Shown here in pieces: positions 5,615 through 16,711 of a stretch of DNA of 64,000 nucleotides. The stretch comes from Brevibacillus sp. GTDB taxonomy: Bacteria > Bacillota > Bacilli > Brevibacillales > Brevibacillaceae. Location of the stretch: the NCBI GenBank assembly GCA_017656235.1, contig JACDOF010000002.1, forward strand, positions 186,001 to 250,000. Reading direction: 5' to 3'. The position numbers and the translations under genes were made by a program. The notes below the pieces were generated by a model. It made no database searches. It was not told the DNA's origin and saw nothing but the letters and a program-made list of their open reading frames with translations. Every line of letters begins with the position of its first letter. The first letter of the stretch is position 1.

Positions 5615-6796
5615 TCAGTTGTACCGGCGGCTGTACAGCCAATCGACATGGCTGATGTCTTCCGGACTGCGCTGCTCCATGATGGTATTGCGCAAAAGAA
5701 TGGCGATCGGATCGTCGGCGTGGATGATGTCTCCCCACACGCGAGCGCTGCGCTGCACTGTGGCCGTGCGTGGAATGCGCTCTTGCTGGTAGGCCAGGAA
5801 AGCCTTCTCCACGTCGGTGTCATGCAACCGCAGCATTTCCGTCAGGCAAGCGGCATCCTCCAACGCTTGACAACCACCTTGGGCGAGATACTGCAGCATG
5901 GGATGAGCGGCGTCACCGAGCAGCGTGATCCGTCCCGACGTCCAGTTGTCGATCGGCTCACGGTCGTACATGGGCCAACGTCGTTGACGCTGGATGTAAG
6001 TCACCGCGTTGCGCACGGGTGGGCAGCATGCACCGAAGTGCTCGTCAAGCTCGTCAGGAGTGCCCCAGTCATCGGAATCCTCCTTGTAGCGGAAGCTTTT
6101 AAACACAACCACCTGGTTATAAAGCTCCTTCCGCCGCACGGGATACTGAACAAGGTGGAGATGAGGACCGATCCACATGATGACGTCGTCCAGGTCGGCG
6201 TGCGGAGTGATTTCCGACATCGGAATGGTGCCGCGATAGGCGACGTATTGTGAGCAGACGGGCTTGTCGTCGCTAAACAGTCGTCGCGTTTTCGACCACA
6301 ATCCGTCCGCGCCGATCACTGCTTCTGTCAGATAGGTAGTACCGTCATGGCAGACGACCCGGGCTTTCTCACCCAAATTCTCAACGTGCTCTACCATTTG
6401 GTCGGTAAGCAGCGTGATACGGCCATTTGCCCGGCAGGCGTCAAGCAGTACCTTGTGCAGATCGGATCGATGCAGCACAAGGTAAGGATAGCCATAACGC
6501 TCGCGGAAGGAACCGCCCAAGTCAAGAGCGCTAAGTTCCTTTCCGGAAAAGGCATCCATCAACACGAGACGTTTCGGAAAGACCGCATATTCACGAATCG
6601 CTTCAAGTACCCCAAATTTGTCCAAAACCGCTGTCGCATTTGGTGCCAATTGTATGCCAGCACCAATTTCGCCAAACTCCTTGGCCTGCTCCAATACGTG
6701 GACGGACCGACCGGTCTCGGCAACGCCCAGTGCAGCTGCGAGACCGCCAATGCCGCCGCCAACGATCAGGAATGGAACCTCTGTCACTTTCGTCAT
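5615..6796 (-). CDS. FAD-dependent monooxygenase, likely 3-hydroxybenzoate 6-hydroxylase
   Basis: 393 residues, matching class A flavoprotein hydroxylases. The FAD-binding GGGIGG lies at residues 13-18, the NAD(P)H/FAD motif in VIGADGLWSKTR, and the FAD ribityl-binding motif in LLGDAAHPMLQYLAQGG. The family includes 3-hydroxybenzoate and salicylate hydroxylases. Because the next genes degrade gentisate, the expected reaction is 3-hydroxybenzoate to gentisate with NADH and O2; a salicylate 5-hydroxylating role is less likely for a single-component enzyme. It is the last gene of the minus arm. ATG 6796 follows GAGGTG by nine bases; a GTG 12 bases upstream has no site. Confidence 0.85.
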   Translation of the reverse strand: MTKVTEVPFLIVGGGIGGLAAALGVAETGRSVHVLEQAKEFGEIGAGIQLAPNATAVLDKFGVLEAIREYAVFPKRLVLMDAFSGKELSALDLGGSFRERYGYPYLVLHRSDLHKVLLDACRANGRITLLTDQMVEHVENLGEKARVVCHDGTTYLTEAVIGADGLWSKTRRLFSDDKPVCSQYVAYRGTIPMSEITPHADLDDVIMWIGPHLHLVQYPVRRKELYNQVVVFKSFRYKEDSDDWGTPDELDEHFGACCPPVRNAVTYIQRQRRWPMYDREPIDNWTSGRITLLGDAAHPMLQYLAQGGCQALEDAACLTEMLRLHDTDVEKAFLAYQQERIPRTATVQRSARVWGDIIHADDPIAILLRNTIMEQRSPEDISHVDWLYSRRYN

Positions 6797-6841
6797 AACA
6801 AGAAACACCTCATGTCATGTAGTAGATTCGCTGCTGTCAGA

Positions 6842-7954
6842 TCAGGGCAAAAGAGGTGTGAATTCATCGGTAATCTCTTGATGCCCTTGATTCTGCTCAT
6901 AACTCTCTTCTCGTTGAACCTCAAACCTCTCCATAATCGGCAGGTCACTTGCAGAGAACAGAAACGAATCCTCTGCAGCCACATGCTCATGCCAAGCCCA
7001 GTTTGGCACCACGAAGCAGTCTCCTTGTGACCAATCAAAACGAATGCCATTAATGACTGAATAACCGGAACCTTTGAATACCTGATAGATGGTTGAGCTG
7101 GTATGTCGATGTGCTTTGGAGTGAAACCCTTTGGGAAGCTTCTGCATCCAGGCAGCGATGGTTGGATTGGCCGTTTTTCCATTGGATGGATTGATAAACT
7201 CCACGGCATAACCATCATAAGGATCCGGTTCAAATCGGCTTAATCCCTCGATTGCGGCCAGCGTTTTCGCCCATTTGTATGAACCGAGCGGAGCCACTTT
7301 TGGATGGCGATCTGAGATCGGACGAACCATTCCTCCTGCATATCGCCACGCCGTGTAATTATCCGGAACCTTCGGCTGCTCTATCTTTTCAGGGTAATTC
7401 TCAAAGAACGTTCCACCAATTGCATAGATGGTTGGAATATCGAGACAGTCCATCCAAATCATCGGCTCATCTCCAGGATGAGCATGTCCGTGCCACAGAC
7501 CCTTTGGAGTGATCAGAAAATCGCCTTCCTCCATAAAGATTCGCTCACCTTGAACGATTGAGTAAGCGCCGCTTCCTGTCGTAATAAACCGGAGAGCGCT
7601 CTGGGTATGGCGGTGAGACGGTGCTATTTCTCCCGGCAAAATCAACTGCACGGCCGCGTAAAGGGTTTGGGTCGTGGACGCCCATCCCCATGGTTTGCGG
7701 TGTTTTAAGCCAGGGTTTTGCAAGTAGATGGCTCTTCTTTCGCCGCCGCGCTCAGGGGTGAAAATTTCACGTGCTTCCATTAGTTTTGTGTACAGCGTCT
7801 TCCATTTCCACAGATAAGGGACAGCTTGTGGTGCAGGCTGTTTGTGCATCAAATCAGGGATTGCGTTCCAAAGAGGTCCGAGATGGTACTTTTCAATCTC
7901 TTGATTAAACTCTTGCACGACTTTACTTTGAAAAAAATCGTTCTTTTCAGCCAT
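6842..7954 (-). CDS. Gentisate 1,2-dioxygenase
   Basis: 370 residues, a bicupin of the usual length for the family. The N-terminal cupin carries the Fe(II)-binding motif SHRH at residues 113-116 and a further His cluster HGHAH at 155-159. The C-terminal cupin has SKAHRHTSS and WAWHEH. The enzyme opens the gentisate ring between C1 and C2 to give maleylpyruvate. It lies between the hydroxylase and the DinB-fold protein in a tight minus-strand operon. The gene starts at ATG 7954, 19 bases after the upstream stop. Confidence 0.93.
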   Translation of the reverse strand: MAEKNDFFQSKVVQEFNQEIEKYHLGPLWNAIPDLMHKQPAPQAVPYLWKWKTLYTKLMEAREIFTPERGGERRAIYLQNPGLKHRKPWGWASTTQTLYAAVQLILPGEIAPSHRHTQSALRFITTGSGAYSIVQGERIFMEEGDFLITPKGLWHGHAHPGDEPMIWMDCLDIPTIYAIGGTFFENYPEKIEQPKVPDNYTAWRYAGGMVRPISDRHPKVAPLGSYKWAKTLAAIEGLSRFEPDPYDGYAVEFINPSNGKTANPTIAAWMQKLPKGFHSKAHRHTSSTIYQVFKGSGYSVINGIRFDWSQGDCFVVPNWAWHEHVAAEDSFLFSASDLPIMERFEVQREESYEQNQGHQEITDEFTPLLP

Positions 7955-7972
7955 CTTTTGACACCTCGATTC

Positions 7973-8470
7973 TCAGCGTGTTTGATGCCGTTCGTGGTAC
8001 TGCTGGATATTTCGTTTGATTTGGTTCAAATGAGTGGCGAGATGTTCTGCCAATAAATGATCAACAACAAATTGCATCGGTTTTGTTCCGAAGCGAGGAT
8101 TGCGGCTTGGTGACTCTATTTGCAAATCATCCTCCCGGATAGAGCCGAGCGTCTCCTGCACCTTTGCCTTTGAATGTTCGATTCCTTGTAAAACATCCTG
8201 GACGGAACGCTGATCGGCTTGAGCCACGGCTGCCAGCCGCCCCTCATGCTGCAAACCGCGTCCCCACTCGATTCCCGGATTTTTGACGACCTGTTGGATT
8301 TCATTCAGCCAATATGGGGTTGCCTCTTCCACATGGCACAATACTTCCATGATGGACCACTTATCCTCGGCTGGCTTCCAACGAATCAATTCTTCCGATA
8401 ATTCTTTGGAAACGCTAACAATTTGATCTATCGTTTCTTGGATGCTTTTAATCGCCTCGCTCACGTTCAT
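7973..8470 (-). CDS. DinB-fold protein, candidate thiol-dependent maleylpyruvate isomerase
   Basis: 165 residues forming the four-helix DinB/YfiT pattern. The metal-binding triad appears as His46 (LCHVEE) and His143/His147 (EHLATH). DinB-superfamily enzymes include mycothiol-dependent maleylpyruvate isomerase of actinobacteria and bacillithiol transferases of Bacillota. Its place between gentisate dioxygenase and fumarylpyruvate hydrolase is exactly where the maleylpyruvate to fumarylpyruvate isomerase is needed, and no glutathione-type isomerase is present. I therefore infer a bacillithiol-dependent maleylpyruvate isomerase. Only the fold and triad are directly seen; general bacillithiol transferase is the alternative. 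Only three bases separate it from the hydrolase gene upstream. Confidence 0.75.
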   Translation of the reverse strand: MNVSEAIKSIQETIDQIVSVSKELSEELIRWKPAEDKWSIMEVLCHVEEATPYWLNEIQQVVKNPGIEWGRGLQHEGRLAAVAQADQRSVQDVLQGIEHSKAKVQETLGSIREDDLQIESPSRNPRFGTKPMQFVVDHLLAEHLATHLNQIKRNIQQYHERHQTR

Positions 8471-8473
8471 TTT

Positions 8474-9418
8474 CTATTCCCCCTGATCGACCTTTTTTAC
8501 CCGATTCTCCAGTACCCCAATGCGATCGATTTCAATCCGAACAACATCTCCATCTTTCAAGAACACTTGTGGGTCTCGGGCAACACCTACTCCGCCTGGT
8601 GTACCCGTTAGTATCACATCACCCGGTTCAAGCGTCATGAGATTGGACAAAAATTCGACCAAATAGGGAACGGAAAACACTAAATTTCTCGTATTGGATC
8701 GTTGGCGTTCTTCTCCATTTACCGTCAAAACGACTTCCAATCCGGACGGATCTTTCAGCTCATCACTCGTCACCAACCATGGTCCCATCGGGGCGCTGCC
8801 TTCCACTGTTTTTCCCTGCAGCCATTGAATCGTTCTTCTTTGGATATCGCGATAGGTCACGTCGTTGACGATTGTGTAACCGGCTACATAATCCAACGCA
8901 TCTTGCTGCGATACATTTCTGGCCCGCTTTCCCATGACAAAGGCGAACTCCGCCTCGTAGTCCAGCTGCTCAGAGAGCGGGAAGAAAGGAATATCATCTT
9001 GAGGACCGATGATGGTATTGCTGAACTTGGCAAATACGACAGGATAGGGAGGAATCTCACGGCCCATCTCTAAAATATGCTCACGATAATTGTGGCCAAC
9101 GCAAATCATTTTCCCAGGCTGCAAGACCGGCGCCTCAATTTTTACATCCGACACTTGATGAATAACCTTGTATGTAAATGCTTTGGCGCTTTGATTGACA
9201 TATTCGACCGCTTGCTTGGCCAGCTGCAGACTTTGCTCTCCACCCTGTAAAAATTCAACCATATTAGCGGGAATGAAAGCTTCGGCAATTTGTTGGGCGC
9301 GAAGTGATCCTTCCGATTCAAGCATTGTACGGTAAGCATAGTTTAAATCAATGATCTTATCGTCCATGATGCAGCCAATCCGAGTATTTCCCTCGTAACG
9401 AAAACTGACAAGCTTCAT
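8474..9418 (-). CDS. Fumarylacetoacetate hydrolase family protein, likely fumarylpyruvate hydrolase
   Basis: 314 residues. An N-terminal regulatory region is followed by the FAH catalytic domain with VGHNYREH near residue 107, metal ligands Glu154 and Glu156 (DYEAEF) and an Asp near 186 (IVNDVTYRD), then the conserved ILTGTPGGVG segment. The family cleaves C-C bonds in 3,5- or 2,4-diketo acids. In this operon the expected reaction is fumarylpyruvate to fumarate plus pyruvate, finishing gentisate breakdown. It is the first gene of the minus arm and faces the transporter arm across a 355-base regulatory region. Confidence 0.87.
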   Translation of the reverse strand: MKLVSFRYEGNTRIGCIMDDKIIDLNYAYRTMLESEGSLRAQQIAEAFIPANMVEFLQGGEQSLQLAKQAVEYVNQSAKAFTYKVIHQVSDVKIEAPVLQPGKMICVGHNYREHILEMGREIPPYPVVFAKFSNTIIGPQDDIPFFPLSEQLDYEAEFAFVMGKRARNVSQQDALDYVAGYTIVNDVTYRDIQRRTIQWLQGKTVEGSAPMGPWLVTSDELKDPSGLEVVLTVNGEERQRSNTRNLVFSVPYLVEFLSNLMTLEPGDVILTGTPGGVGVARDPQVFLKDGDVVRIEIDRIGVLENRVKKVDQGE

Positions 9419-9457
9419 TCGCTCATCTCCTTTCTTGACCCCTTTTCATCGTTATAC

Positions 9458-9482
9458 AAATAGAGAATTTAGTTCCCTATTT
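9458..9482. promoter_or_regulatory. Palindromic operator A, gentisate arm
   Basis: AAATAGAGAA, five-base spacer TTTAG, TTCCCTATTT: a ten-base inverted repeat with one mismatch, about 40 bases upstream of the hydrolase start. It shares the left half AAATAGAGAA and the following TTArTTC with operator B at 9688. It overlaps the probable promoter region of the minus arm (a TATAAA on the minus strand lies at its right edge). The IclR protein encoded at 14166 is the obvious candidate to bind. Confidence 0.6.
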
Positions 9483-9650
9483 ATACATCATTGAAAAGCA
9501 AAAGCAATCATTTTGTCAATATTCATACGGAAGATAATTTTTAATTTTTTATAAGTTTGACCGATGGAATTGGAGACGCGGCTGAAAAAGAATGGAGCTG
9601 CCGAACAACAACTTTTTGGGTGAAGGTCATATCGCAGAGTAAAAATCATG

Positions 9651-9720: not shown

Positions 9721-9773
9721 ACCTAAAAAATCGTAAAGAACAAAGGAGTATGACGCACGAAAGGGGGGCCAAA

Positions 9774-11201
9774 GTGGAACTTGGCGGGTTGAGCAACGAG
9801 CCGCACTGCAGTTGGTTGAACAGGCACCCAAGGATATGGCAGACAGCAACAGTAGTGTTTGCTGCTGCTGCCGCTTACAGTCTGTATCAATTCGTGCCGG
9901 AAAGTACTCTCGCCGAACAACCCAGGTTAACGCTAGCGATCAATTTGTTTGTCATTTTTCTTTGGGCGACGCAAATCGTACCCTCCGGATACGCTGGTCT
10001 AATCGCGTTGATGCTTTTTGCTTCCCTTGATCTTGGCAGCAAGGAATCCGTCTATTCCTTCTGGATCAGCCCGATTGCTTTTCTGGTTATCGCTTCATAC
10101 TTGATTGCCAGAGCGGTGGAAAAATCGGGTCTGGGGGAGAGGATTGCATCGTGGATATTGACGCCTTTCGTGACGTCGTATCGCACGCTGATCGCATCGG
10201 TGTACGCGGCCGGCCTTTTGCTCACGCTAGTCATACCGCATCCATTTGCGCGTGCCTTTATTGTTTTGGCTGCTGCCAAAGCGATGTACGATCATCTGCG
10301 ACTCGAACATGATGAAAGGGCTTCCGTGGGTTTGGCCATCTTTTCTTCCGCCTCGATCAATTCGCTTATCTTTTATACGGGAGACAGCGCTTTAAATCCC
10401 GCAATTTCGGAATTGACGGGTATTCCTATTTCATGGTTGGGCTGGTTTCAATGGATGGGTGTTCCTTCACTCCTTTTGTATGCGCTTTCTTTTGTGGTTC
10501 ATCTGTTGGTATTTCCTGGACGAGGAAACGCAGCGCCGATTTTGAAGAAGAAACGGCCTTCAACTCCATTCAGCGTTTCGGAAAAGTGGACACTTGGATG
10601 GCTGGTTATAGCCATGACCTTATGGGCGACGGACACCTGGCACGGAATTCATCCCGGTTGGGTGGCAGTATTCTGCGTGTTTGGCATGGTACTGCCGATT
10701 GCTGGCCCTTTGCTTGGCCCTGACGATTTTAAAACGGTAAAAATCGACGTGCTGCTTTTTATGGCCGCTGCCATTGCCATCGGCAAAGTGAGCGAGGAGA
10801 CGGGGCTTAGTGCGTATCTTGCGGATTTGCTGTTTCCTGACAAATCCCTTGATCATCCCCTCCTGATTGTCGGTTTACTGACATTGGCAGGCATGGCGAT
10901 GCACTTTTTTATTGGCAGTGCGTTCTCCTTGGTCAGTTTTATGGTTCCAATGACCGTGATCTTGATGCAGCAAAACATGATGAACCCGATTGTTGGAGCC
11001 ATGATCGTCTATATTTGTGCCAAAGCGCAGTGGTTTTTTCCATTTCACGTGATGGATCTGATGATTGGAATGGAACCGGGGGGTTACGCTCAAAGACAGG
11101 TCATCCGGCTCGGTGCAGCCATGATGATACCGCTTATGATCAGTATTCTCTTTTTTTATCTTCCTTGGTGGTGGATGGTGGGATGGCTCTACACCGGATG
11201 A
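9774..11201 (+). CDS. DASS/SLC13-family anion permease
   Basis: 475 residues with about a dozen hydrophobic segments. The divalent-anion:sodium symporter family is suggested by the two repeated halves, the first with SSASINSLIFYTGD, the second with FMAAAIAIGK and MHFFIGSAFSLVSFMVPM, corresponding to the paired re-entrant loops that hold substrate and sodium. These transporters import carboxylates. Here the cargo is probably 3-hydroxybenzoate, gentisate or a related carboxylate, because the gene faces the gentisate operon and shares its operators. GTG 9774 was chosen, five bases after AAGGGGGG; an ATG at 9750 directly abuts AAAGGAGT and has no usable spacing. Confidence 0.8.
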   Translation: MELGGLSNEPHCSWLNRHPRIWQTATVVFAAAAAYSLYQFVPESTLAEQPRLTLAINLFVIFLWATQIVPSGYAGLIALMLFASLDLGSKESVYSFWISPIAFLVIASYLIARAVEKSGLGERIASWILTPFVTSYRTLIASVYAAGLLLTLVIPHPFARAFIVLAAAKAMYDHLRLEHDERASVGLAIFSSASINSLIFYTGDSALNPAISELTGIPISWLGWFQWMGVPSLLLYALSFVVHLLVFPGRGNAAPILKKKRPSTPFSVSEKWTLGWLVIAMTLWATDTWHGIHPGWVAVFCVFGMVLPIAGPLLGPDDFKTVKIDVLLFMAAAIAIGKVSEETGLSAYLADLLFPDKSLDHPLLIVGLLTLAGMAMHFFIGSAFSLVSFMVPMTVILMQQNMMNPIVGAMIVYICAKAQWFFPFHVMDLMIGMEPGGYAQRQVIRLGAAMMIPLMISILFFYLPWWWMVGWLYTG

Positions 11202-11275
11202 CAGGGAAGAAGAAGTGACTGAGCAACAACTACGAAGTTGTGTGTGTAAAGGATTTGTATATTGGGGGGTAAAAC

Positions 11276-12307
11276 ATGAAAAAGACATTTTCATTCGTAC
11301 TGTCAGCTATCCTGAGCTTGTCCCTTGTGCTTGCTGGTTGCGGAAATGACTCGCAAAATTCAAGCGCTTCCAATTCTTCCGGTGGTGATCAAGCGGGCGG
11401 TAAAACGTATGAGTTTAAACTGACGCATATTACGCAGAACAGCCACGTTTGGCACAATACCGCCGAGAAGTTCAACGAAGAGTTGCAGGCACGATCCAAC
11501 GGCCGCATGAAAGTGGAAATATTCCCCGCAGGCCAACTTGGCGCTGAGCAAGACATGGTCCAGCAGTTGGAAACTGGATTAGTTCAGTTCGGAATTATTA
11601 CCAATGGATATGTAAGCACCCGTTCGGAATCTTTTAACGCTTGGTTCATGCCTTTCTTGTTCGAGAATCTGGAACAAGCTGCACAAGCCCGTGATTCCGA
11701 ACCCGCTAAAAAAATCCTGGATGAATTAAGCAGCCAAGGTATTCTGGGGTTTGACTTTGTCTTTGCCGGCAACCGTCACATTCTGATGAAAGAAACTTCT
11801 GTTACAAAGCCGGATGATTTGAAAGGGAAGAAGATCCGCATCCTCGGCAGCCCTGCTGTTCAAGATTTTTGGACTGCTGTAGGTGCGGGACCGACTCCGA
11901 TGCCGCTGCCTGAAGTATACACTTCCTTGCAGAGCGGTGTGATCGACGGAATCGAGATCGACCTTGATGCTCTCAATACTCAAAAGTACTACGAGATCGC
12001 GAAAAACCTGACGATTGCCAACCTCATGACGTTCCCGGGCGTATTTGTGATGAGTAAATCTGCATACGATGAATTGTCGCCAGAAGACCAACAGATTGTT
12101 GCTGAGTCGATTAAAGCGGCTGTGGAATGGGGCAATCAAGAAGCGATTTCCCGTGAAACCAAAAACCTGGAAGAGTTAAAGAACAAAGGTGTGACCATTA
12201 CCGAATTGACCAACAAGGAAAGCTTCAATGCGATTCGTGACGAAATGTATGCAAAATACAGCAGCAACCCATTGATCAAAGAATTCATTGAAGCACACAA
12301 AAAATAA
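11276..12307 (+). CDS. TRAP transporter solute-binding lipoprotein (DctP family)
   Basis: 343 residues. The signal peptide ends in a VLAGC lipobox, with Cys21 lipidated, then a Ser/Gly-rich linker. The DctP fold follows: AGQLGAEQDMVQQLETG, then GNRHILMKETSV and PDDLKGKKIRI, ending with the long helix and GQ-type segments typical of the family. The conserved Arg that binds the substrate carboxylate is in KKIRILGSP. It delivers a carboxylate to the DctQ/DctM permease encoded next. Anchoring by a lipid is the Gram-positive arrangement. The operon context points to an aromatic or keto acid. Confidence 0.9.
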   Translation: MKKTFSFVLSAILSLSLVLAGCGNDSQNSSASNSSGGDQAGGKTYEFKLTHITQNSHVWHNTAEKFNEELQARSNGRMKVEIFPAGQLGAEQDMVQQLETGLVQFGIITNGYVSTRSESFNAWFMPFLFENLEQAAQARDSEPAKKILDELSSQGILGFDFVFAGNRHILMKETSVTKPDDLKGKKIRILGSPAVQDFWTAVGAGPTPMPLPEVYTSLQSGVIDGIEIDLDALNTQKYYEIAKNLTIANLMTFPGVFVMSKSAYDELSPEDQQIVAESIKAAVEWGNQEAISRETKNLEELKNKGVTITELTNKESFNAIRDEMYAKYSSNPLIKEFIEAHKK

Positions 12308-12320
12308 GAGGTGCACCAGC

Positions 12321-12815
12321 GTGAATATCTTGAGAAGAATAAGTGACACCTTATTCGCGATTGAGAAGTTGGCAGCGATTATCCTGATCAGTGTCATGCT
12401 GTGTTCCTTGGTTGCGGGAGTCATGTTCAGATACGTTTTGAACTCTCCTTTGGCTTGGTCCGACGAGGTTGCGATTTTCGCCCTCGTCTGGATCACGTTT
12501 ATTGGCGGAAGTATGGGAATCAAACTTGAACAAGCAGCTTCCGTTACGATTTTTACTGACTTTCTGAAAGGTCGTTCGAAAGAAATCATTTTTACGATCG
12601 GCTGGGGAATCGTATTTGTCTTCTGCTTGTTTCTATTAATCTATTCATGGGCATGGATCATGTCCCCTTCCATTGGTGTACAAAAGTCAAGCTCGCTGCA
12701 GCTTCCGATGATTTATCCGTACCTTAGTGTACCGGTGGGCCTGTCGTTCTTGACTGTTCATACGCTGAGCAAGTTCGTGGACTGTTTGTTTAGCGGGAGA
12801 GGAAAGGGGGAATAA
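12321..12815 (+). CDS. TRAP transporter small permease (DctQ family)
   Basis: 164 residues, four hydrophobic helices, with the DctQ pattern FRYVLNSPLAWSDEVA followed by WITFIGGSMGIK. DctQ is the small membrane subunit that partners DctM. GTG 12321 was chosen, seven bases after AAGAGGTG; an upstream ATG at 12288 lies inside dctP and lacks a site. The gene is 13 bases after the binding-protein stop and four before dctM. Confidence 0.9.
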   Translation: MNILRRISDTLFAIEKLAAIILISVMLCSLVAGVMFRYVLNSPLAWSDEVAIFALVWITFIGGSMGIKLEQAASVTIFTDFLKGRSKEIIFTIGWGIVFVFCLFLLIYSWAWIMSPSIGVQKSSSLQLPMIYPYLSVPVGLSFLTVHTLSKFVDCLFSGRGKGE

Positions 12816-12818
12816 TCG

Positions 12819-14096
12819 ATGACCACTGCGCTCTTGATCTTCATTGTGCTGATCCTGATCCGCGTCCCCATCTCGCTCGTACTCGGCATCACGAGTATTG
12901 CGTACATCCTGTTGAGTGCCAATTCCGGTTTGCTGATTACGGTCCCGCAGCGCCTATACTCGGGGTTGGAAAGCTATGGATTGCTGGCTATTCCGCTCTT
13001 TATGCTTGCCGGTGAGTTGATGAACTCAGGGGGAATTACGACCCGTCTGATTCAATTCGCCAAAAGTTTTGTCGGTCACTTCCGGGGCGGATTGGCTTAT
13101 GTTAACATTGTGGCGAACATGTTCCTCGCCGCCATCATCGGATCGGCGACAGCACAAATTGCGATGATGTCCCGGGTTATGGTTCCTGCCATGGAACGAG
13201 AAGGATACAAACGGGAATTCGGCGCAGCGACCACGGCAGCCGCAGGTCTGCTCGGCCCCATCATTCCGCCGAGCATGCTGTTCATTATTTACAGCGTCGG
13301 ATCGGGCGCATCCGTGGGAAAGATGTTTCTCGCCGGCATCATACCCGGCCTGATTATTGGTCTGTCGTTCGTCATCCTGGTCGCGTATATCGGCTACAAA
13401 CAATCTTTGCCCAAATCGGAAAGAGTGCCGTTCAAAGATAAACTGGAATCGACGTTCAAAGTGCTGCCGGCGCTTCTCGTGCCAGGCATTATGATTTGGG
13501 GAATTTTAAGCGGTGTGTTCACCCCGACGGAATCGGCAGCGATTGCCAACATGATTGGATTGATCGTGGGCTTCTTCTTTTATAAAGAGTTGAAGTTGAA
13601 AGATATTCCGGGAATTATCTTGAACACTGCCGTTACGACGGCTACCGTGACGCTGTTGGTCGCGATGGCCAATTTGTTTGGATGGGTGCTGGCGTTTGAA
13701 CGTATCCCGCAGCTTATCGCGGAATGGATGGTGAATCTTACGACCAATCCGTATGTGTTTCTGCTGCTCGTCAACATGTTTCTCCTTTTGATAGGAATGG
13801 CGTTTGACGGCATTGCGGCGCTCATCATTTTGGTACCGATTTTTATGCCGCTCCTGCCCCATTTTGGCATCGATCCGATTCACTTTGGCGTCATTGTTTG
13901 CCTCAACTTGACAATCGGTCTGCTTACACCGCCGGTTGGCGCCGGGCTCTTCATATCCTCTGCGATTGGCAATGTAAAATTGGAAGCTTTGTTGAAATCG
14001 ATCTGGCCGTTCTTGATTGCTTCCATGGCTGTGCTTCTTCTCATCACGTATATACCAGATCTCGCATTATGGATACCGAATCTGGGAGGAAAGTAA
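12819..14096 (+). CDS. TRAP transporter large permease (DctM family)
   Basis: 425 residues with about twelve hydrophobic helices, the normal size of DctM. Diagnostic stretches are LFMLAGELMNSGGITTRL near the N-terminus, GPIIPPSMLFIIY in the first repeat, and NLTIGLLTPPVGAGLF in the second. These correspond to the sodium- and substrate-binding re-entrant loops. It is the ion-driven translocator of the tripartite system. It completes the plus-arm transport block before the IclR regulator. Confidence 0.93.
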   Translation: MTTALLIFIVLILIRVPISLVLGITSIAYILLSANSGLLITVPQRLYSGLESYGLLAIPLFMLAGELMNSGGITTRLIQFAKSFVGHFRGGLAYVNIVANMFLAAIIGSATAQIAMMSRVMVPAMEREGYKREFGAATTAAAGLLGPIIPPSMLFIIYSVGSGASVGKMFLAGIIPGLIIGLSFVILVAYIGYKQSLPKSERVPFKDKLESTFKVLPALLVPGIMIWGILSGVFTPTESAAIANMIGLIVGFFFYKELKLKDIPGIILNTAVTTATVTLLVAMANLFGWVLAFERIPQLIAEWMVNLTTNPYVFLLLVNMFLLLIGMAFDGIAALIILVPIFMPLLPHFGIDPIHFGVIVCLNLTIGLLTPPVGAGLFISSAIGNVKLEALLKSIWPFLIASMAVLLLITYIPDLALWIPNLGGK

Positions 14097-14165
14097 GACG
14101 TTGATCATCAGACGCGTCTATTTTATACTGGAACATATGCGAAATTGTAGAAAGGTTGTCAAGAA

Positions 14166-14927
14166 ATGGTTGCATCCAAATCAAGCACCACAATTCAGTC
14201 TTTGCAGATTGGCTGTGATATACTCGAATTGGTTGCTTCTCACGAGAGACCGTTGAAATTCAACGAAATCCACGAAATGTCTGGAATCACAAAGAGTAAT
14301 TTGTATAAATATTTAAATACGCTCACGCAGATCGGGCTGCTTTATCGAGACAAAGAAACCGGCCTGTATTCACTGGGAAGCAAACTGGTGGAATACGGCA
14401 TGAAAGCCGTGAATCAGGAGAACGTAATTGAGCGGGTCACACCTTACCTTCAGGAAATTAACCGAATCTGCAAAAATACGGCATTGTTGGCGACATGGAC
14501 GCACAACGGACCGGTTGTGGTAAAACTCATCAACAGTCAGCAGGGACTGAATATCGGCGCACAAATCGGCACGTTTCTTCCCATCATGTCGGCATGCGGG
14601 AAAGTGTACGCAGCTTTCATGGAAGAAACATCAATTGGGGAGTGGAAAAAGCAGCAGTTGGCGAAGCTGGACGGCGAACAAAAGCTCCAACTGGAAGCGG
14701 AAATCGAATTTGTCCGGGAAAATGGCATTTCGTTTGCGAAAGAACCGCTGGTACCGAGTATTTCCTCTATCGCCCTGCCGATCTTTAACTTTGAAAAACG
14801 TCTGCTGGGCGTCATCATTGTCGTCGGCTTTAATGAAACCGTACCAAATCAAATCGACGATCCGATGAGCCAATATTTGATAAAGACGGTTAAAGAGATA
14901 TCTCAAACGTTTGGGTACAAGGCCTGA
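14166..14927 (+). CDS. IclR-family transcriptional regulator
   Basis: 253 residues. Residues about 10-75 form the winged helix-turn-helix (LKFNEIHEMSGITKSNLYKY), and the remainder is the IclR effector-binding domain with the expected LSACGKVYAAF-like segment (here IMSACGKVYAAF) and SSIALPIFN. IclR proteins commonly control aromatic-acid catabolic and uptake genes, binding an inverted repeat near the promoter. As the last gene of the transporter arm it is the likely regulator of both arms through operators A and B. Effector is probably gentisate or 3-hydroxybenzoate, by inference. Confidence 0.88.
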   Translation: MVASKSSTTIQSLQIGCDILELVASHERPLKFNEIHEMSGITKSNLYKYLNTLTQIGLLYRDKETGLYSLGSKLVEYGMKAVNQENVIERVTPYLQEINRICKNTALLATWTHNGPVVVKLINSQQGLNIGAQIGTFLPIMSACGKVYAAFMEETSIGEWKKQQLAKLDGEQKLQLEAEIEFVRENGISFAKEPLVPSISSIALPIFNFEKRLLGVIIVVGFNETVPNQIDDPMSQYLIKTVKEISQTFGYKA

Positions 14928-15021
14928 AGTATCCTGTCAAAGCCCCATCTTCCAATCGTAAGCTGCTCGGCACTCTGCACACAGGGGGCCGATTATTTTT
15001 TGTGCCACAAACGGTATCAAA

Positions 15022-15058
15022 AAAAGAGGAGCACTTCTCATTGGAGTGCTCCTCTTTT
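15022..15058. terminator. Bidirectional terminator overlapping the GT-C gene 3' end
   Basis: AAAAGAGGAGCACT (15022-15035) pairs perfectly with AGTGCTCCTCTTTT (15045-15058) around a nine-base loop. The stop codon of the minus-strand glycosyltransferase lies in the loop, so its last codons are part of the terminator stem. It separates that gene from the convergent iclR. Confidence 0.85.
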
Positions 15059-16711
15059 CACGAGATTCACCGTGTGAACGGGTATTTCATACACCACCAC
15101 GGTATCATAAACCGGAAAGAGAAACGGATCGGCCGTGAAGCGGGCGACTTCTTTTACCTCACTGCGAAACGGATGCTCTGCCCCGAATCCGTCCAGTACG
15201 GCCTTGGTGATGAGCATGTACGGCTTCGTCTCGGCCTGCAGCAGCAGCGATTGGACAAAGTAAGGAAAACTCTGCAGCCGTTCCGTTCCGATCGCCGGGG
15301 CGTAGTAATCGAACAGCCGCTGCTCCTCCCACGTGTAGATCAACGTCTTTTCCGCTGGGTAGTGCTCCTCTACATACCGCACCAACTGCAGCGCGGGCGG
15401 GGGGTGAAGATGCTGCTCAAGCACGGTGAGTTGACGAACGAACAGCGAGCAGATCAGCAGGATCATCGGGAGTGTGAGGACGCAGTGTGTAATAGCTCGA
15501 CCGTTGGGTGCAAAGCATGTTCTGCCAAAACCGGAATTCGCACTTTGAGGGCAGGGTACCAAGCGATTGACAGCGGCAGCAGAACGTGTCTCGGACAGTT
15601 TCCACAGCACAGTCCACCCATAAGCCGCGAGCAGGATTACCCACGGAAGCAGCGGCAGCAGATGGCGCGACTTTTCCGGATTTTGTCCAACGATCATCCA
15701 CAGCGCGTAGGGAATCACCGAAAGGGCGGCAAAGGAGGCAACTGACCGTTTCGCAGTGCCTCTGTGAATCAGCTGCAACGCGCCTGCCACGAGTAAGAAG
15801 ACGGACAACGAGGTACAGAAGATCGCCACTCCAACTGAAAGAGGCGCCATAGTCGCCCATTCGGCTGTCCCGGTGAGGCCGTTCATCACTGCGCGGTCCC
15901 ATATCCATGTTTTGATCCGCTCCCACCACGCCGCATCTGACTCCGCGGTAAAAGCGGTTCCGCCCCATTCGGCAAAGTGACCGGAGGTAAACGCCTTCCC
16001 GAGTGCGAAATAGGCGGTGAGTCCCCCTTCCGTCGCCGCGGTCGGCAACAGCCAGGCGAGCAGACTGGCCGTAAAAACCAGGATGACGATCAAGCAGGCA
16101 AGCAGGGAGCCGGTTGTTCGTTTGTGCGCCTTCCACAGTCGTGTCAGCGGATAAAGCAGTACCAGGCCAACGGGAAAGTACGAGATCCGGACGGCCAAGA
16201 TACAGGATAATAAGATGACCCCCACGCAGGTGAAAAAGAGCAGACGATGCGGCGGTGCGTCCAGTGTGCGGGCAACCCACGCTTGAAACACCAGCACGAA
16301 GAACATTCCGAGCGCTTCCGACATCGGCTGTGTCCCCGTAAGGGCGAGCAGCGGGTTCGCTGCAAACAGCAGGCAAGCCGTCCACACCGTGAGCGGGTCG
16401 CGGCAGGTACGGCAGGCCAATTGATAAAACGGAATGATCGACAGGCTGCCGAACCAGGCCGACAGCCAGCTCAAAGCAAGTACAGGATCGCCGGTGAGCG
16501 GCAGGAACAGATGGCCGAACAAGATGAACAGCGGATAGCCGGGAAAGTGCGGCTGCATCTCAAAGATGTCGTACCGCTCAAGGGCCAGTGCGAAGTCAAC
16601 CGCATCCCAGCTTTCGGCGTACGTGCCCGCATGGACCAGGCGGACGACAAGCGCGAGCCCAACCAGTCCGGTGAGCGCGATGAGGTTTTTCTGCTGGCTG
16701 ATTCCCTGCAT
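15038..16711 (-). CDS. GT-C type membrane glycosyltransferase (family 39-like)
   Basis: 557 residues. About eleven hydrophobic helices are followed by a short soluble C-terminal part. The first extracytoplasmic loop has ESWDAVDFALALE with acidic residues in the place of the catalytic Asp/Glu of GT-C enzymes, then HFPGYPLFILFGHLF, which fits the ArnT/PMT-like family that uses polyprenyl-phosphate sugars. It would glycosylate a lipid or surface protein outside the membrane; the acceptor is unknown. ATG 16711 was chosen for AGGAGG five bases upstream. It follows the FTR1 gene by about 100 bases and may be read from the same Fur promoter. Confidence 0.75.
   Translation of the reverse strand: MQGISQQKNLIALTGLVGLALVVRLVHAGTYAESWDAVDFALALERYDIFEMQPHFPGYPLFILFGHLFLPLTGDPVLALSWLSAWFGSLSIIPFYQLACRTCRDPLTVWTACLLFAANPLLALTGTQPMSEALGMFFVLVFQAWVARTLDAPPHRLLFFTCVGVILLSCILAVRISYFPVGLVLLYPLTRLWKAHKRTTGSLLACLIVILVFTASLLAWLLPTAATEGGLTAYFALGKAFTSGHFAEWGGTAFTAESDAAWWERIKTWIWDRAVMNGLTGTAEWATMAPLSVGVAIFCTSLSVFLLVAGALQLIHRGTAKRSVASFAALSVIPYALWMIVGQNPEKSRHLLPLLPWVILLAAYGWTVLWKLSETRSAAAVNRLVPCPQSANSGFGRTCFAPNGRAITHCVLTLPMILLICSLFVRQLTVLEQHLHPPPALQLVRYVEEHYPAEKTLIYTWEEQRLFDYYAPAIGTERLQSFPYFVQSLLLQAETKPYMLITKAVLDGFGAEHPFRSEVKEVARFTADPFLFPVYDTVVVYEIPVHTVNLVKRGALQ

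Follow-up and report, generated by a model that had tools for sequence, protein, structure and literature searches.

A 64,000-nucleotide stretch of Brevibacillus sp. DNA (contig JACDOF010000002.1; hereafter the window) carries, on the minus strand at positions 5615-9418, four genes that may together encode a route from 3-hydroxybenzoate through gentisate. In order of transcription, they encode a hydrolase of the FAH family, a small protein of the DinB/YfiT fold, a bicupin dioxygenase resembling gentisate 1,2-dioxygenase (GDO), and a flavin-dependent hydroxylase (Table 1). The second of these, referred to here as the window DinB, is the main subject of this work, as it is a candidate for the maleylpyruvate isomerase of the pathway. 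The gaps between the genes are 3, 18, and 33 bases, which makes a single operon likely, and the tight four-gene arrangement described in a first-pass annotation of this DNA is borne out. A scan for promoters and terminators returned counts at chance level (6 versus a mean of 5.1; 4 versus 5.2).

The two enzymes that act on the aromatic ring are assigned from profile and structure-database comparisons. Among NCBIfam models, the hydroxylase scores highest with 3-hydroxybenzoate 6-monooxygenase, and its best relative in the PDB is 4bjy, labeled there as a “probable salicylate monooxygenase”. The dioxygenase scores highest with gentisate 1,2-dioxygenase and has 2d40 and 3bu7 as PDB relatives. A salicylate dioxygenase in place of the GDO is rejected, as two aligned positions that are W and G in 2phd are Y and A in the window dioxygenase. 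These are the positions at which 2phd differs from chains 4fag and 3nst. We take 2phd to be a salicylate dioxygenase whose two differing positions set its substrate range; the search itself labels all of these chains gentisate 1,2-dioxygenase.

The window DinB exceeds the Pfam cut-offs of PF12867 (50.2 versus 24.8 bits) and PF05163 (27.2 versus 23 bits) and barely passes that of the mycothiol S-transferase family PF04978 (27.4 versus 27 bits), while no NCBIfam model matches it at E ≤ 0.001. Histidines are found at positions 46, 75, 99, 138, 143, 147, 159, and 162, which include the His46, His143, and His147 singled out in the first-pass annotation. These three are invariant in all 22 DinB sequences from GDO clusters that were aligned (alignment A1), and also in two natural FAH-DinB fusions (loci L050 and L059) that lie outside the alignment. 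Twelve residues of A1 are invariant overall, among them Arg71, Arg78, His138, Gln150, and Arg153, some of which might, as a guess, bind maleylpyruvate through its two carboxylates. At E ≤ 0.01, every A1 member matches PF12867 and the mycothiol S-transferase profile, and 7 of the 22 match the MDMPI_N domain (PF11716), with the protein of L061 above the cut-off (27.2 versus 24.2 bits). By its profile, its fold, and its three putative metal histidines, the window DinB belongs to the DinB/YfiT (S-transferase-like) superfamily. The genome that contains the window encodes four DinB_2 proteins; the other three score at most 4.6 bits with the profile of the gentisate-linked DinB proteins and align too poorly for residue-by-residue comparison.

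The fold of the window DinB was predicted with AlphaFold2 from its sequence and three relatives, giving a model with a mean pLDDT of 91.4 and a pTM of 0.87. Foldseek ranks 2rd9 (BH0186) and 1rxq (YfiT) at the top, followed by the mycothiol transferase 8f5v, with the mycothiol-dependent maleylpyruvate isomerase 2nsf in ninth place (E 2.2e-3). VIA-align gives Z scores of 17.1 for 1rxq (155 residues aligned, 2.6 Å), 16.6 for 2rd9, 14.7 for 8f5v, and 13.0 for 2nsf, although a Z near 13 can be unspecific by itself for helical bundles. The alignment with 2nsf spans 149 residues, covering positions 7-155 of its 240, at 12% identity. Kinship between the two proteins is nonetheless likely because of the profile matches of the subfamily to the mycothiol S-transferase and MDMPI_N families. 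A sequence search of the PDB with the DinB alignment has 2rd9 as its only match at E ≤ 0.01 (36.7 bits).

The DinB subfamily is closely linked to the genes of ring cleavage. Among 398 sampled genomes of the class, taken to be Bacilli, 23 match the window dioxygenase at E ≤ 1e-40. With the A1 profile run over 398 genomes of the class, 18 genomes, each of them among the 23, give a total of 22 matches at E ≤ 1e-15. Twenty-one of these matches score 183-255 bits and lie no more than 5 kb from a GDO gene; 20 are within about 1.1 kb, and the one in genome G261 is about 4.5 kb off. The remaining match is that of G021, at 64.5 bits and without Arg71, Arg78, and His138. A contig scan of another collection, started from the DinB protein alone, returned four loci. 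Three hold full-length relatives, in Paenibacillus naphthalenovorans, P. fonticola, and P. ginsengihumi, and in each the DinB gene lies between those for FAH and GDO. The fourth (L017, 4133-4657) is a partial match of 38.7 bits on a Bacteroidetes metagenome contig, in a stretch without GDO or FAH. A chance neighborhood is ruled out by the recurrence of the FAH-DinB-GDO set in other genomes.

Five GDO-bearing genomes (G008, G009, G017, G038, and G059) have no linked DinB and carry only more distant dioxygenases. The best GDO per genome reaches at least 471 bits in the DinB-bearing genomes and at most 452 bits in these five; sequence identity is no clean separator, being 54% in DinB-bearing G232 and G375 and also in DinB-lacking G038. 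Seven of the places where GDO occurs without DinB were read in 14-20 kb (L052-L058) and three in 4 kb (L025, L047, and L048); two further places have no locus. The FAH protein follows the same division. The window FAH scores 263-701 bits with its relatives in DinB clusters (its own score included) and 119-178 bits with the FAH proteins of L052-L058. These seven clusters represent a second arrangement, with a more distant GDO type, a different FAH, and no DinB, which sometimes occurs beside the DinB type in one genome (G084, G232, and G391).

Within the linked set, the DinB gene is retained while the order of the genes changes. The order FAH-DinB-GDO is shared by the window, L014-L016, and L064-L069, the order GDO-FAH-DinB is found in L060-L063 (with the hydroxylase next in L060 and L061), and in L051 the DinB gene is detached, about 4.5 kb from GDO. 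FAH-DinB-GDO thus recurs outside the window, and the order varies among clusters. In two loci, DinB and FAH are a single protein. The fusion of L050 (G021; 10371-11822, minus strand) has 483 residues, with Pfam placing FAH at 104-308 and DinB at 341-468. The fusion of L059 (G232; 8260-9597, minus strand) has 445 residues, with FAH at 76-281 and DinB at 297-432. Both have the DinB part on the C-terminal side, both adjoin GDO, and both retain the full set of twelve invariant A1 residues.

On the FAH tree, L059 falls inside a six-row clade with the unfused L060-L063 (SH-aLRT 98), and L050 falls elsewhere among unfused relatives (15-row set, support 80). On the DinB tree, L050 is in a 20-row group (support 95/94) that excludes L059. 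Rows of the DinB tree all begin with a residue written as M, including those of L026 and L061, which have no start codon there; A1 is unaffected. From these separate placements, the simplest reading is that the fusion arose twice, in separate lineages. No other single hint that DinB makes the substrate of the next enzyme, the hydrolase, is as strong as its fusion to that enzyme.

Related arrangements are seen around these loci. In Alicyclobacillus dauci, the chromosomal copy (L044, 26-1347) has its FAH and DinB parts as overlapping open reading frames in different frames, and on plasmid NZ_CP104065 (L092, 5061-6486) the FAH/DinB region is annotated as three open reading frames where the relative L059 has one fused gene. 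The plasmid also carries a gene for a PIG-L family deacetylase (10045-10575), at a distance of about 3.5 kb from DinB; we take this family to be that of the bacillithiol deacetylases and conjugate amidases. Near the fusion of L050, at 12019-16578, are genes that by sequence resemble those of an FAD hydroxylase, an aminotransferase, an amidohydrolase, and a LigB-like dioxygenase, which suggests a different feeding route into ring cleavage.

The genome of the window (3.6 Mb, 31 contigs, rated 100% complete) bears on both the isomerase and its thiol. By the terms of the first-pass annotation, a genome lacking bacillithiol synthesis genes, or one with a separate isomerase gene essential for growth on gentisate, would refute its reading; the genome shows neither, as far as known isomerase types go. 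BshA (570.8 bits) and BshC (556.4 bits) exceed their cut-offs, and a profile search of the genome at E ≤ 0.001 finds no isomerase gene of a known type, neither the GST-type/MaiA isomerase (TIGR01262) nor the mycothiol-type isomerase domain (PF11716). At the same threshold, not one of 24 GDO genomes (the 23 of the class search and G033, with the window genome among them) matches TIGR01262, and BshC is present in all 24.

These observations lead to a proposal for the pathway. The hydroxylase would convert 3-hydroxybenzoate to gentisate, the dioxygenase would open the gentisate ring to give maleylpyruvate, the window DinB would turn the cis double bond to trans to give fumarylpyruvate, and the FAH hydrolase would cleave fumarylpyruvate to fumarate and pyruvate. 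In a mechanism modeled on that of the mycothiol-dependent isomerase, His46, His143, and His147 would hold a divalent metal that activates a small thiol as its thiolate; the thiol would add to the cis-enone, allow the bond to rotate, and then leave. The thiol in these hosts is most likely bacillithiol. Overall, the chance that the window DinB serves as maleylpyruvate isomerase in a complete 3-hydroxybenzoate/gentisate pathway, with bacillithiol as the most likely thiol, is estimated at about three in four. Of the readings considered, a thiol-dependent maleylpyruvate isomerase of the single-domain DinB type is favored by a wide margin, and comparative evidence strongly supports the isomerase assignment made in the first-pass annotation, through the linkage to GDO and FAH, the retention of DinB through changed gene orders, the two fusions, and the lack of a known isomerase type in the window genome. 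Bacillithiol, which that annotation had named as the cofactor, is a plausible one. For the subfamily as a whole, it is probable, with somewhat less confidence, that these single-domain DinB proteins are bacillithiol-dependent maleylpyruvate isomerases distinct from the two-domain enzyme of actinobacteria, that their gene is the one missing from gentisate breakdown without glutathione in Bacilli, and that at least two lineages have fused them to a fumarylpyruvate hydrolase, giving a bifunctional enzyme for isomerization followed by cleavage, perhaps with direct transfer of the intermediate.

Several observations weigh against this assignment. The hydroxylase and the dioxygenase both miss the curated cut-offs of their top models (Table 1), and the sequence of the FAH protein leaves both maleylpyruvate and fumarylpyruvate as candidate substrates. 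The window DinB has no match to MDMPI_N at E ≤ 0.01 and ends at residue 165, without the C-terminal part of the 240-residue 2nsf; on these grounds, it is not regarded as an ortholog of the two-domain actinobacterial isomerase, even though 7 of the 22 aligned sequences match MDMPI_N. Because the loci that went into the DinB profile were GDO-linked, part of the selectivity of the profile is built in, and the informative part is that strong matches are missing elsewhere in the sample. In a phylum-wide sample (398 genomes, 267 genera), the profile matched the window genome only. On quick trees, the presence of DinB requires one change on the GDO tree (support 35) and one on the FAH tree (support 100, with a long-branch warning), meaning that the set was possibly co-inherited and that the covariation does not amount to many independent events. 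The DinB tree requires two changes, as the unlinked L090, on a long branch, falls inside the linked set, and a single DinB clade is thereby not established. Finally, BshC is common, being present in 333 of the 398 class genomes; at that rate its presence in all 18 DinB-bearing genomes has a probability of about 0.04, making its occurrence in every DinB-bearing GDO genome weakly informative.

Other explanations can be set against the assignment of the window DinB as an isomerase. The FAH protein could be a maleylpyruvate hydrolase that cuts the ring-cleavage product directly into maleate and pyruvate, which would leave the DinB protein an accessory. Direct hydrolysis is a known alternative route, as stated in part of PMC11603403, and the window FAH scores higher with the maleylpyruvate hydrolase structures 6jvv/6jvw (125 bits) than with the putative fumarylpyruvate hydrolase 4maq (96 bits). 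However, other family members outscore both (8sky, 221 bits; 1gtt, 212 bits), so this ranking says little. Against a direct hydrolase in the window stand also the persistence of DinB across altered gene orders and its two separate fusions to FAH, and the clearly different FAH proteins of the seven DinB-less clusters would fit those enzymes as the direct hydrolases. This explanation is considered unlikely. A similarly low probability is given to a DinB isomerase that uses another thiol, such as cysteine or coenzyme A, or none at all. In its favor, isomerization independent of glutathione was reportedly described in Bacillus in 1985. On the other side, those structural relatives for which the cofactor is known use bacillithiol or mycothiol, and the presence of BshC in all GDO genomes adds slightly to this, within the limits set by its frequency in the class.

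It is considerably less probable that the window DinB acts as a bacillithiol S-transferase without isomerase activity, conjugating reactive intermediates such as quinones or maleylpyruvate to detoxify them. S-transfer to the model substrate monochlorobimane is the activity assayed for relatives from Bacillus subtilis, according to passages of PMC5815605, but such a role would leave the pathway with no isomerase of a known type, and a pathway enzyme would more naturally be found fused to the hydrolase that acts next. The least probable alternative is a ring substrate other than gentisate, such as 5-aminosalicylate or a substituted gentisate, and hence a different isomerized compound. The dioxygenase scores nearly equally with the gentisate (328 bits) and 5-aminosalicylate (320 bits) dioxygenase models, both below cut-off, and the stretches examined of L015, L016, and L050 yielded no relative of the window hydroxylase. 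Against this stands the hydroxylase of the window, which is nearest to the model of 3-hydroxybenzoate 6-monooxygenase, an enzyme whose product is gentisate.

Beside the operon, the divergently transcribed DASS/CitMHS-type transporter may take up the aromatic acid, and the IclR-family regulator probably controls the cluster. IclR matches (E ≤ 1e-3, some weak) occur in 10 of 13 DinB-bearing stretches, with none in L050, L062, and L066. Between the two genes lies a TRAP transporter, whose DctP subunit is assigned by PF03480 (237 bits) and whose two membrane subunits are named by sequence and position alone. One aromatic-acid operon thus has two unrelated transporter systems, DASS and TRAP, next to it at 9750-14096. 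The cluster of P. naphthalenovorans (L014) is likewise adjoined by what appears from sequence to be a TRAP-like set.

Table 1. Features of the operon and adjoining genes in the window
Feature	Positions	Strand	Remarks
FAH-family hydrolase, predicted fumarylpyruvate hydrolase	8474..9418	-	314 aa; first operon gene; PF01557 250 bits
DinB/YfiT-fold protein, predicted thiol-dependent maleylpyruvate isomerase	7973..8470	-	165 aa; PF12867; putative metal ligands His46, His143, His147
Gentisate 1,2-dioxygenase (GDO)-like bicupin	6842..7954	-	370 aa; TIGR02272 328 bits, cut-off 442
3-Hydroxybenzoate 6-hydroxylase-like flavin monooxygenase	5615..6808	-	397 aa, GTG start; NF006021 430 bits, cut-off 459
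DASS/CitMHS-type anion transporter	9750..11201	+	PF00939 104 bits; divergent from operon
TRAP transporter genes	11276..14096	+	DctP 11276-12307; two membrane subunits 12288-12815, 12819-14096
IclR-family regulator	14166..14927	+	PF01614/PF09339

Actinobacteria already provide precedents for the reaction, the fold, and the notion that a thiol acts as cofactor. A search of the open-access literature by title and opening of abstract, with subscription journals mostly outside its scope, found no bacillithiol-dependent maleylpyruvate isomerase, and within that literature the subfamily, its host group, its presumed thiol, and its fusions appear undescribed. In the one annotated public record examined, that of the A. 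dauci plasmid, the DinB protein is annotated merely as a “DinB family protein”, and such pathways may consequently look incomplete in automatic annotation. If the proposed function is correct, bacillithiol would serve as the cofactor of a step in carbon catabolism, beyond its part in detoxification and redox buffering. A study from 1985 reportedly described glutathione-independent isomerization of maleylpyruvate in Bacillus megaterium, a species of a bacillithiol-making genus, and this DinB family would then supply a candidate gene for that activity. The natural FAH-DinB fusions are ready-made candidates for a bifunctional enzyme.

Three known systems invite comparison with the window DinB. 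Glutathione-dependent isomerases (NagL/MaiA, TIGR01262) catalyze the reaction predicted here, a thiol-assisted cis-trans isomerization, with a fold that differs from DinB, and are the type for which the GDO genomes gave no match. The bacillithiol transferases of B. subtilis (BstA-H, with YfiT/BstA as 1rxq) and BH0186 (2rd9) share the fold of the window DinB, and the Bst proteins also share a three-histidine site and a host with bacillithiol genes. They differ in that the activity measured for the Bst proteins was S-transfer to a model electrophile and that 2rd9 reaches 36.7 bits with the gentisate-linked profile. Passages of PMC5815605 describe YfiT/BstA as a bacillithiol transferase with metal-dependent activity, and its His67, His160, and His164 as the only residues conserved across all eight Bst proteins. 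In Corynebacterium, the role of cofactor belongs to mycothiol, as stated in part of a review (PMC4360819).

The isomerase of C. glutamicum (NCgl2918, 2nsf) has, like the window DinB, a DinB-type bundle, the same position in the pathway, and a gene that stands with those for GDO and FAH. The window DinB differs in being a single domain of 165 residues with low identity to 2nsf, in a host with genes for bacillithiol synthesis, and in the putative metal site, which is His/His/His in the window DinB and presumably His/Glu/His in 2nsf. Should the assignment hold, the two enzymes would represent one fold and one reaction served by two different thiols.

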